Positions 48,801 to 54,800 of a DNA stretch of 64,000 nt are shown here, piece after piece (the stretch's first letter is position 1; each line of letters starts with the position of its first letter). The stretch comes from Apostichopus japonicus. Its lineage: Eukaryota > Echinodermata > Holothuroidea > Aspidochirotida > Stichopodidae. The translations under genes and the position numbers were made by a program. Location of the stretch: positions 21,580,666 to 21,644,665 of the forward strand of contig NC_092579.1 in assembly GCF_037975245.1 (NCBI RefSeq). The letters are read 5' to 3'. The notes below the pieces were generated by a model. The model saw only the letters and a list, made by a program, of their open reading frames with translations. It was not told the DNA's origin and ran no database searches.

Positions 48801-51800
48801 AACCGCTTCAATACACTGGATCACCTATCGAGAGATCACGGTAATTCGTTTGTTTCACTATTCACTTTTGCATCTACTTTTTCTTTTTGGGTTGGAAGGT
48901 ACTGAGGAAGGGGTGGGGTTGGGGTGGGAGGGTGTTACAATTCCAGTTAATGATGTAGAGAGCATCTATCAAAGCCAAAGTGAAAGGTGACCATCTTTAC
49001 TTCAAAGCATATACTGTATGAGGGGATAACAGTTCAGTCTTACCATCTTTTCCTTTGTTGAAATATGACTGTTTACAGGTGCATCATCTTAGCTTTAGTA
49101 AAATTGATCTGTTTTTCTTTTGTTTCCTTACATAGGCTGCAGAAATTAGTGAAGAAGCATAATTTGGTGGTTGCATCGTATGACATTGTGAGAAACGATA
49201 TAGACTTCTTCCGGTGAGTGTGTCCAGTACAGGTAGAATGATAACCGTTATAAAAAGTATAAATATCGTCCAATAAAGTTTACAAAAACTAAAACATTGA
49301 TTGGAGTGGAAATTCTGATTATTCAGTACTTAATTAACAGTTGTTTCAATTCAATTGTAATAATGTATTTTGCCCTCCTGGCTTCCCTTAGGATTCCCTT
49401 CGTCCAAGTTGAGACATCTCAAAAAGATTCACCGAAAGTTTGTGCCTGGTCGGAAATTATTGCCCATTCACGTTATTCATGAATGTTGGAAAATCATTTT
49501 GGTACACATTTTTTGGTTCCCGAAACGCCCAGTGAAGGACAAAATTTGTGAGTAGAGGATCACATATTTAATATATGTACCTCACTGAATAGTCACCAAA
49601 TATTTCCTTCCCCCTCCTCTCCCCCCTGGGGTCACCACTATCAGACAACCCCATCCACCAGCATTACTTGAACAAAAACTTCAGATGTTAGATATGTTAG
49701 TGTCATTAATGAAACAAGGTATGATGCACCAACTAGTTTAACATTATTGTCAGTTTAATGAGTAGAGAAAGCTCAGAGACAGTGCTGGCTATGCAAAGCA
49801 CAATTGAATCCTGTAATACTTTCAGTCATCTGGCATAGTGCAATGATCTACTCTTGAGTTCTATTTATTTAATAAGATATTGCATTAATCTAGTTTGTAA
49901 CACATATGCTTCTCGACTGCAAAAAGTACAATGTTCTAAATTAAGTCAATTTTATCGCATAACTGTTCAAATGGAGTTTTTACCCTTTCTGTAATGGAAT
50001 AGCCCTTTGGGAGATTATAGATGAGAGGGAATGATGTGCCTGTTAGGCCCTCAGTTATACCCTGCCAACCCCCTTCCTGAACCCAACCCTATCCCCTGGA
50101 CTGCCTCCACCCTCTGCCATTTTTACTGGCTCTTTTACTTGACCTGTCCTTTTTCTGTGCTGTAGATAATAAACATTTGCAATGTGGCAACTTTGGTAAC
50201 TTTAATTTCTTTCTTTCTTCAACATTTGCAGATCAATCAAGTGGAAATATTGTATTCTGGATGAAGGACATATTATTAAAAATGGGAAAACGAAAATGTC
50301 CAAAGCAATCAAGCAACTGCAAGCGGCTCACAGACTGATACTGTCAGGAACACCGATACAGGTAAATTATCTAACAGACCGATACTGTCAGGAACACCGA
50401 TACAGGTAAATTATCTAACAGACTGATACTGTCAGGAACACAGATACAGGTAAATTATCTAACAGACCGATACTGTCAGGAACACAGATACAGGTAAATT
50501 ATGTAACAGGCTGATACTGTCAGGAACACTGATACAGGTAAATTATCTAACAGACCTATAATGTCAGGAACACCGATACAGGTAAAATATCTAACAGACC
50601 GATACTGTCTGGAACACAGATACAGGTAAATTATCTAACAGACCGATACTGTCTGGAACACCGATACAGGTAAATTATCTAACAGAATGATACTGTCAGG
50701 AACACAGATACAGGTAAATTATCTAACAGACCGATACTGTCAGGAACACAGATACAGGTAAATTATGTAACAGACTGATACTGTCAGGAACACCGATACA
50801 GGTAAATTATATAACAGACCGATACTGTCAGGAACACCGATACAGGTAAATTATCTAACAGGCTGATACTGTCAGGAACACTGATACAGGTAAATTATCT
50901 AACAGACCTATAATGTCAGGAACACCGATACAGGTAAAATATCTAACAGACCGATACTGTCTGGAACACAGATACAGGTAAATTATCTAACAGACCGATA
51001 CTGTCAGGAACACCGATACAGGTAAATTATCTAACAGACCGATACTGTCAGGAACACCGATACAGGTAAATTATCTAACAGACCGATACTGTCAGGAACA
51101 CTATCTAACAGACCGATACTGTCAGGAACACCGATACAGGTAAATTATCTAACAGACCGATACTGTCAGGAACACCGATACAGGTAAATTATCTAACAGA
51201 CCGATACTGTCTGGAACACCGATACAGGTAAATTATCTAACAGACCGATACTGTCAGGAACACTGATACAGGTAAATTATCTAACAGACTGATACTGTCA
51301 GGAACACCGATACAGGTAAATTATCTAACAGACCGATACTGTCAGGAACACCGATACAGGTAAATTATCTAACAGACCGATACTGTCAGGAACACCGATA
51401 CAGGTAAATTATATAACAGACCGATACTGTCAGGAACACCGATACAGGTAAATTATCTAACAGACCGATACTGTCAGGAACACCGATACAGGTAAATTAT
51501 CTAACAGACCGATACTGTCAGGAACACCGACACAGGTAAATTATCTAACAGACCGATACTGTCAGGAACACCGACACAGGTAAATTATCTAACAGACCGA
51601 TACTGTCAGGAACACCGATACAGGTAAATTATCTAACAGACCGATACTGTCTGGAACACCGATACAGGTAAATTATCTAACAGGCTGATACTGTCAGGAA
51701 CACAGATACAGGTAAATTATCTAACAGACCGATACTGTCAGGAACACCGATACAGGTAAATTATCTAACAGACCGATACTGTCTGGAACACCGATACAGG

Positions 51801-54800
51801 TAAATTATCTAACAGACCGATACTGTCAGGAACACTGATACAGGTAAATTATCTAACAGACTGATACTGTCAGGAACACCGATACAGGTAAATTATCTAA
51901 CAGACCGATACTGTCAGGAACACCGATACAGGTAAATTATCTAACAGACCGATACTGTCAGGAACACCGATACAGGTAAATTATCTAACAGACCGATACT
52001 GTCAGGAACACCGATACAGGTAAATTATCTAACAGACCGATACTGTCAGGAACACCGATACAGGTAAATTATCTAACAGACCGATACTGTCAGGAACACC
52101 GATACAGGTAAATTATCTAACAGACCGATACTGTCAGGAACACCGATACAGGTAAATTATCTAACAGACCGATACTGTCAGGAACACCGATACAGGTAAA
52201 TTATCTAACAGACCGATACTGTCAGGAACACCGATACAGGTAAATTATCTAACAGACCGATACTGTCAGGAACACCGATACAGGTAAATTATCTAACAGA
52301 CCGATACTGTCAGGAACACTATCTAACAGACCGATACTGTCAGGAACACCGATACAGGTAAATTATATAACAGACTGATACTGTCAGGAACACCGATACA
52401 GGTAAATTATCTAACAGACCGATACTGTCAGGAACACCGATACAGGTAAATTATCTAACAGACCGATACTGTCTGGAACACCGATACAGGTAAATTATCT
52501 AACAGACCGATACTGTCAGGAACACTGATACAGGTAAATTATCTAACAGACTGATACTGTCAGGAACACCAATACAGGTAAATTATCTAACAGGCTGATA
52601 CTGTCAGGAACACTGATACAGGTAAATTATCTAACAGACCGATACTGTCAGGAACACCGATACAGGTAAATTATCTAACAGACCGATACTGTCAGGAACA
52701 CCGATACAGGTAAATTATCTAACAGACCGATACTGTCAGGAACACCGATACAGGTAAATTATCTAACAGACCGATACTGTCAGGAACACTATCTAACAGA
52801 CCGATACTGTCAGGAACACCGATACAGGTAAATTATATAACAGACTGATACTGTCAGGAACACCGATACAGGTAAATTATATAACAGACTGATACTGTCA
52901 GGAACACCAATACAGGTAAATTATCTAACAGACTGATACTGTCAGGAACACTGACACAGGTAAATTATCTAACAGACCGATACTGTCAGGAACACCGATA
53001 CAGGTAAATTATCTAACGGAATTGGTACTGTCAGGAACACTGATACAGGTAAATTATCTAACAGACCGATACTGTCAGGAACACCGATACAGGTAAATTA
53101 TCTAACAGACCGATACTGTCAGGAACACCGATACAGGTAAATTATCTAACAGACCGATACTGTCAGGAACACCGATACAGGTAAATTATCTAACAGACCG
53201 ATACTGTCAGGAACACCGATACAGGTAAATTATCTAACAGGCTGATACTGTCAGGAACACCGATACAGGTAAATTATCTAACAGACCGATACTGTCAGGA
53301 ACACCGATACAGGTAAATTATCTAACAGACCGATACTGTCAGGAACACCGATACAGGTAAATTATCTAACAGACCGATACTGTCAGGAACACCGATACAG
53401 GTAATTTATCTAACAGAATGATACTGTCAGGAACACTGATACAGGTAAATTATCTAACAGACTGATACTGTCAGGGACACAGATACAGGTAAATTATCTA
53501 ACAGACTGATACTGTCTGGAACACCGATACAGGTAAATTATCTAACAGACTGATACTGTCTGGAACACTGATACAGGTAAATTATCTAACAGATTGATAC
53601 TGTCAGGAACACCGATACAGGTAAATTATCTAACAGACCGATACTGTCAGGAACACCGATACAGGTAAATTATCTAACAGACCGATACTGTCAGGAACAC
53701 CGATACAGGTAATTTATCTAACAGAATGATACTGTCAGGAACACTGATACAGGTAAATTATCTAACAGACTGATACTGTCAGGGACACAGATACAGGTAA
53801 ATTATCTAACAGACTGATACTGTCTGGAACACCGATACAGGTAAATTATCTAACAGACTGATACTGTCTGGAACACTGATACAGGTAAATTATCTAACAG
53901 ATTGATACTGTCAGGAACACCGATACAGGTAAATTATCTAACAGACCGATACTGTCAGGAACACAGATACAGGTAAATTACCTAACAGTACTTCTTGTTT
54001 GTCCGTAGAACAATGTTTTGGAGCTCTGGTCTCTTTTCGACTTCCTGATGCCCGGTTTCCTTGGTACCGAGAAACAGTTTCAAGCCAGATTTGCAAAACC
54101 AATCTTGCAGAGCAGAGATGCAAAGAGTTCATCCAGAGAACAGGAAGCAGGTAGAATCTCTTACAGCTATGATCTGCATTCCTCCCCTTCCCCCTCCCCT
54201 TTGTGTTACCATGGTACCCATCCTCCTCCACATTACCGTTTGTCATGCAACAACCCACAGTGGTAATCGGCAATGCAACTTACGTAGTTTCTCCTCCATA
54301 ACGTAAATGTTAAGTTATTAGAAAGCTTTTAATCATGTGAATAACAAGTAAATTAGGTGAATTTCTACTCCATGGCTCTTCCTTACGGATAATACTGTGC
54401 AATTAAATAACAGTCTAGAGCAGGGGTGGGCAACCTTTTTGAATGAGTGGGCCAGAATAAGGAGTGAAAAATTGACTTGGCCGCACCTAACCAATGACGT
54501 GCTGTTGATTTCAAACCTTTGATTCCGAGGACTTTCAAGCAATAGGTGTGTGTACCAAATCTGCATTCACAAAAACATGTCAATACAGTATAGTTGATAA
54601 TAAATGGGGATAATAGGCCTACCTGACAACATCATTAGCGCCGATAAATTCTAAGCAGCTAACTCGTTTTTTGTGATGATGTAAAATAGATTAATATTTT
54701 AAAATTTTTCTTGAGACATCTCACAGGCCGCAAAAAAATCACTGGCGGGCCGCATGTGGCCCGCGGGCCATAGTTTGCCCACTCCAGGTCTAGAGAGACC

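Follow-up and report, generated by a model that had tools for sequence, protein, structure and literature searches.

A BTAF1 intron of the sea cucumber Apostichopus japonicus consists almost entirely of tandem copies of its own 5' splice site and the adjoining exon end

How can a single messenger be spliced from a pre-mRNA that offers 81 near-identical 5' splice sites (donors), nearly all of them 44 nt apart, ahead of one acceptor, and how does such a tract come about in the first place? The question is raised by BTAF1, a conserved transcription regulator gene, in a stretch of 64,000 nt from the genome of the sea cucumber Apostichopus japonicus (assembly GCF_037975245.1, contig NC_092579.1, positions 21,580,666 to 21,644,665), which is called the window below; coordinates are those of the window, and the gene and its arrays lie on the forward strand. 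Studies of how one 5' splice site is chosen over its competitors generally use a few engineered sites. We find that the array in BTAF1 is a real and extreme example of the class of repeats known from lancelets as mirages. It is, very probably, a minisatellite that was seeded by microhomology as a duplication over the 5' splice site, that grew by slippage or unequal exchange, and that has been tolerated since the first donor is the one used.

The main array runs without interruption from 50330 to 53988 and is composed of 84 head-to-tail units, 80 of them 44 bp long, one 45 bp and three 30 bp, as delimited by Tandem Repeats Finder (TRF) and by segmentation. A preliminary description, made from the letters of this DNA, had reported about 84 copies of the intron's own 5' splice site plus the exon end; segmentation bears out both the array and this number, whereas the span given for it (50331 to 53985) had to be corrected. 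As that description also held, unit 1 (50330-50373) consists of the genuine end of the exon, ACAGACTGATACTGTCAGGAACACCGATACAG (the last 32 nt of the exon), followed by GTAAATTATCTA (the first 12 nt of the intron), and the later units repeat exon end and donor alike apart from three short ones: CAG/GTAA, the slash marking the splice junction, is intact in 81 of the 84 units, and the three units without it are those of 30 bp, in which the donor has gone together with 14 bp (unit 18 at 51078-51107, with the same type at 52296-52325 and 52766-52795 in the unit list). The intronic hexamer of these donors is GTAAAT in 77 cases, GTAATT in two and GTAAAA in another two.

The 80 units of 44 bp have a mean pairwise identity of 95.7%, differing on average at 1.9 positions, and their likeness is therefore not due to chance. 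Divergence is spread unevenly along the array, with a mean number of differences from the commonest unit of 0.63 in units 16-71 (n = 52 of 44 bp), as against 1.93 in units 1-15 (n = 15) and 2.23 in units 72-84 (n = 13), the cut-offs between edge and centre having been set by eye; a homogenised interior from which the boundary units are excluded, as expected of mirages, is accordingly present. The array was also considered as coding sequence and rejected as such, every forward frame having 66-71 stop codons and every reverse frame 77-80.

Long arrays of similar units may be products of genome assembly, with copy number inflated or sequences mis-joined, and some of what is seen here would suit such an origin. 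A block of seven units is duplicated exactly and adjacently, units 70-76 (53325-53632) and units 77-83 (53633-53940) having identical order in the unit-type string and 308 bp each, and among the 80 units of 44 bp one sequence is shared by 32. However, there are 26 distinct unit types overall, arranged in a non-periodic order, and two smaller arrays of this type lie nearby. According to the available text of PMC10344927, a published A. japonicus assembly, which may not be the one from which the window was taken, used 64x HiFi reads with a mean length of 14.7 kb, long enough for a tract of 3.7 kb. An assembly artefact is, in our view, very improbable.

The translation of the host exon (50232-50361), whose last 32 nt form the exonic part of unit 1, matches an SNF2-related domain (E value 1.2e-14), its best match among solved structures being the 'Helicase-like protein' 7zb5 chain E (E value 1.2e-12), which we take to be Mot1. 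For the protein joined from the window exons, the best match comes from Apostichopus japonicus ('TATA-binding protein-associated factor 172-like', 98% along the full length of the query), followed by a starfish protein at 58%, among the best 120 of 2003 matches. The annotated A. japonicus BTAF1 has 1846 residues, of which residues 4-1797 (1794 residues) are found letter for letter in 38 window exons spanning 23025 to 63663, and for all 37 introns between these, positions exist that give GT-AG ends and the correct frame; the naming of the gene as BTAF1 in the preliminary description is thereby confirmed. The host exon, which corresponds exactly to residues 1398-1440, had been numbered as exon 30; it is the 29th of the 38 mapped exons, and would be exon 30 if the three unmapped N-terminal residues (MAT) form an exon of their own upstream.

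The host intron (50362-54008, phase 0, intron 29 of the 37 mapped) is 3647 nt long, which makes it the longest in the gene (median 908 nt, shortest 295 nt), and 3627 nt of it (99.5%) are array. The claim that nearly the whole intron is repeat is thus correct, but the 23 bp said to be left before the next exon follow from placing the array end at 53985; what is left is 20 nt of unique, pyrimidine-rich sequence ending in TCCGTAG, after which the next exon (54009-54150) matches the annotated protein exactly from residue 1441. The 3' end of the intron (53982-54008) begins with the CTAAC of the last unit, whose A at 53985 lies 23 nt before the acceptor G, and this motif may be the branch point. The intron would measure 36 nt if counted from the final donor and 80 nt if counted from the penultimate one.

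Each of the 81 donors was joined in silico to the acceptor at 54009, and the reading was free of stop codons to the end of the next exon with donor 1 only (CAG/GTAAAT, 50362-50367). It had been stated previously that none but the first donor keeps the frame: by length alone this is incorrect, 27 of the 81 donors keeping it, whereas functionally it stands, given that all 80 later donors introduce a stop codon and that therefore only the first one works. The annotated A. japonicus protein reads ...SGTPIQNNVLELW... across this joint, which corresponds to donor 1 of the main array. Coding sequence is needed by the protein from unit 1 only, and among the 80 units of 44 bp the intact 10-residue peptide of the exon end is encoded by 13, one of which is unit 1; the other 67 do not encode it, and 42 of these have one and the same variant.

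We also considered whether RNA structure hides the later donors. Folding of 80 donors, all but the 81st, placed donor 1 second in predicted openness, with 0.657 versus a mean of 0.554 (standard deviation 0.11) for the other 79, but the effect is small and donor 3 (0.804) is more open, and this idea was not relied on. To call the intron a severe test of splice-site choice, as had been done, is fair with regard to what the pre-mRNA presents; the annotated protein and the lancelet precedents nevertheless suggest that the cell passes this test by simply using the first donor.

The joints between units allow a different reading, namely that the CAG/GT of every unit is a ratchet point and that the intron is removed by stepwise (recursive) splicing in steps of 44 nt. 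An AG precedes all 81 donors, and 77 branch-like CTAAC motifs occur in the array, as would suit such a scheme. The pyrimidine content upstream of the AG/GT of the units is, however, 0.41 (maximum 0.47, n = 81), compared with 0.76 (minimum 0.59, n = 37) at BTAF1 acceptors, so that the combination of a pyrimidine tract with AG/GT, by which recursive splice sites are recognised, is missing from the main-array units, and stepwise splicing is for this reason unlikely. Steps of 44 nt are, moreover, shorter than introns usually are, and we give this possibility next to no credence.

If donor 1 is used almost always, its position beside the exon, through exon definition and the order in which donors are synthesised, has to prevail against competitors in 80-fold excess; if it is not, the length of the array should tune expression. 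In the second case U1 would be spread over 81 donors and a fraction of transcripts, growing or shrinking with array length, would use late donors and be destroyed, array length thereby tuning BTAF1 output, or else minor isoforms would arise, as the minisatellite of the human interferon gene 6-16/IFI6 is said to give. That all 80 intact donors after the first are non-productive agrees with this proposal, and a human minisatellite that provides several splice donors has been published, to judge from a title. In addition, the donor core from -3 to +4 is invariant, 0 of 7 positions varying across the 80 units of 44 bp; with 14 variable columns out of 44 this is borderline for chance (P ~0.053), and it is not claimed here as a sign of selection. 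On the other side, positions +5 and +6, just outside the core, each vary in two units of the main array and three units have lost their donors, so that neither selection for retaining donors nor selection for losing them is demonstrated, and the available text of the lancelet papers suggests that splicing is undisturbed by such repeats. We consider this regulatory role quite improbable.

Two further donor arrays are present in the same gene. When each of the 37 donor junctions was compared with as much as 600 nt of its own intron, the other introns serving as control, introns 29, 34 and 37 stood out (scores of 40, 19.5 and 21.5 versus control maxima of 10, 10.5 and 10.5), and in none of the 37 BTAF1 introns beyond these three did the score exceed the control. 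The second array (58739-58952; TRF and junction scan) comprises about 3.1 copies of a 70/71-bp unit, starts 6 nt inside the exon end ...DLLK and has three identical AAA/GTAAGACC donors. The third (62759-63286; likewise TRF and junction scan) comprises about 10 copies of a unit of ~53 bp, starts 8 nt inside the exon end ...EEKIMG and has 7 donor-like GG/GT sites by pattern. In both, an open frame to the end of the next exon is obtained with the first donor only, out of three in the array at 58739 and out of the seven donor-like sites tested in that at 62759. The annotated protein is continuous over ...SGTPIQ/NNV..., ...DLLK/AHM... and ...KIMG/LQKF..., i.e., it uses donor 1 in all three arrays. 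The units of all three span the exon-intron boundary and their copies carry splice signals (81 of 84 units, three donors and seven donor-like sites, respectively), both of which are defining features of mirages. Tandem arrays straddling an acceptor were not found in BTAF1, and a scan for acceptor copies gave one weak signal, in intron 32 (11.0 versus a control maximum of 10.0).

Donor arrays in 3 of the 37 introns of one gene could point to a directed process, tied to transcription or splicing (e.g., through R-loops or U1-bound nascent RNA), that in some deuterostomes makes tandem duplications preferentially at exon ends. Three of the 12 tandem arrays located within the gene span begin in the final 45 nt of an exon, where 0.5 would be expected (P 0.011), in a test which was chosen after the data had been seen and in which an overlapping pair (39573-39704 and 39702-39792, with 3 bases in common) is counted as two arrays. 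The first and cruder null, which considers overlap only and ignores array starts, shows no excess (3 seen versus a mean of 2.2 expected, P 0.34; with independent placement P 0.36), because an array of 3.6 kb overlaps a donor almost anywhere. A directed process is also favoured by the lack of acceptor-straddling arrays in BTAF1 and by the several lancelet genes for which the available text reports boundary arrays. Against this, the evidence comes post hoc from a single gene that was picked for holding one such array, lancelet globins have the acceptor side duplicated too (PMC3087553), and much of the pattern is what a survivor filter would predict, with duplications in other parts of exons being purged. 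We therefore regard a directed process as unlikely.

On the reading that we prefer, that of a mirage-type minisatellite, the first event would have been a tandem duplication over the exon end and the 5' splice site, for which a microhomology of 4 nt, between ACAG in the exon and ACAG at nt 13-16 of the intron, would have provided the seed. The right edges of the three arrays are identical with their exon-side starts over ACAG, TCTA and ATT (4, 4 and 3 nt), whereas in 50,000 draws of random placement around other BTAF1 donors at least 3 nt were shared in 5.4% and at least 4 nt in 1.7%; these edge identities fit a microhomology-seeded tandem duplication with subsequent slippage or unequal exchange. 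Either of the latter may have expanded the array to ~84 units, so that almost the whole intron came to consist of it.

The pre-mRNA would be spliced from donor 1 to the single acceptor at 54008/54009. The exon-adjacent donor is synthesised first and lies nearest to the acceptor of its exon, and should therefore be favoured by exon definition; binding of U1 to what is made first would add to this advantage. Use of a later donor would give a frame broken by the computed stops, and presumably nonsense-mediated decay. With splicing from donor 1 and the loss of products from later donors, the main array would be mostly a neutral passenger, excluded from the mRNA, and the two smaller arrays probably have the same mode of origin and persistence.

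Several observations weigh against this account. A search with the spliced junction yielded no transcript possibly from A. japonicus among the best 120 of 1311 matches (the top-scoring one had 86% over the whole query, and the highest identity was 91% over 60%), so that the use of donor 1 rests on annotation. Donor 1 is no stronger than its copies, its 9 nt being common to 76 others, and it is middling within the gene, with U1 pairing better in 12 of the 37 BTAF1 donors by a simple duplex estimate. The right edges in the microhomology comparison were picked by eye, and a longer chance identity was found by script inside the first array. The enrichment of arrays at exon ends is modest (P ~0.011 post hoc, 0.34 under the cruder null). 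Finally, the unexpanded intron rebuilt from the edges of the array (53973-54008) holds a donor, CTAAC, a pyrimidine tract and an acceptor in this order but is 36 nt long, compared with 295 nt for the next shortest BTAF1 intron; with this length, one has to suppose that some of the former intron interior was lost, the alternative being that the ancestor was itself ultrashort.

Other repeats occur in the window. A 36-bp repeat (43093-43221, 3.6 copies), 30 nt after the donor of intron 21 (43063-43367), was examined as a possible donor array and rejected, having no similarity to the junction (rank 25 of 36). A 15-bp GGAGGGGCATTAGTG repeat of about 10 copies lies within a BTAF1 intron at 46741-46884, and downstream of the last mapped exon a 35-bp tandem repeat (GTGTGTGTGCTGGCAAGTGGGAGG...) occupies 63813-63998, where it reaches the window end. 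Runs of (AT)n, up to 222 bp long, are located at 19328-19549, 41983-42052 and 16380-16508. No tRNA genes were found in the window by ARAGORN (bacterial setting), nor was there an Rfam match at gathering score.

What is new here is the echinoderm host, a new phylum for such repeats within the literature searched, together with the presence of three arrays in one gene and the extreme copy number. Mirages are thus extended to an echinoderm, and the process behind them may be older or commoner among deuterostomes than thought. A wider proposal would be that an active, recurrent process common to echinoderms and lancelets amplifies 5' splice sites in tandem at exon ends, as in 3 of 37 BTAF1 introns, and that the resulting loci are natural experiments in donor choice from which non-productive transcripts may escape, the more so the longer the array; this we consider unlikely.

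Among the known systems with which the main array may be compared, the minisatellite of human 6-16/IFI6 reportedly has a 12-bp unit in ~26 copies, of which the first few donors are used with the frame kept. In both cases each repeat has a 5' splice site at the exon end, but the BTAF1 array differs from the human one, as reported, in its 44-bp units and in being open from donor 1 only, 0 of the 80 later donors being usable in frame. One article, on record by its title (Nucleic Acids Res 1995 23:1854, in the reference list of PMC2572611), concerns a minisatellite that supplies a human interferon gene with several splice donors.

Another comparison is with intron gain through AGGT segments that have been duplicated in tandem in the genome. 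This process, treated in the available text of, e.g., PMC4974935, likewise involves the tandem duplication of splice signals, whereas in BTAF1 no new intron is needed: the acceptor (TCCGTAG/AAC) is located outside the main array instead of being supplied by a repeat copy, and the donor copies enlarge an existing intron. In human duplicated genes, internal tandem repeats at exon-intron boundaries have on average 30-bp units in four copies, and the formation of novel introns from them is proposed in the available text of PMC2812944. These are boundary minisatellites that alter gene structure, as are the arrays in BTAF1, but unlike the latter they are short and have been linked to novel introns.

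Among lancelet genes, Adh3, TnC, the globins BflGb6 and BflGb9, and PGBD5 have mirages, tandem repeats that cross exon-intron boundaries, and the data given in the available text of PMC3087553 and PMC3902484 suggest that regular splicing is not disturbed by them; their clusters are described as unstable in length and as homogenised inside with the boundaries excluded (PMC3087553). Given this named class, the human multi-donor minisatellite already in print and the two additional arrays in BTAF1 itself, the uniqueness implied by the preliminary description cannot be upheld. In the literature searched, coverage of which is incomplete, no mirage from a sea cucumber, sea urchin or other echinoderm was found, nor any closer parallel to the BTAF1 arrays, mirages there being confined to lancelets, and this is weak evidence. 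The BTAF1 arrays resemble the lancelet mirages in that the unit spans the exon-intron boundary and carries a splice signal, and in the case of the main array also in unit size, which falls within the range of the Adh3 mirages (10-72 bp), in concerted evolution with diverged edges and in splicing that is normal according to the annotation. They differ in being found in an echinoderm rather than a cephalochordate, in duplicating donors only, where lancelet mirages can duplicate both boundaries, and in the presence of three arrays in one gene, and the main array differs further in making up 99.5% of its intron and in its ~84 units, as compared with 6 and 3 units in two lancelet haplotypes of BflGb6.

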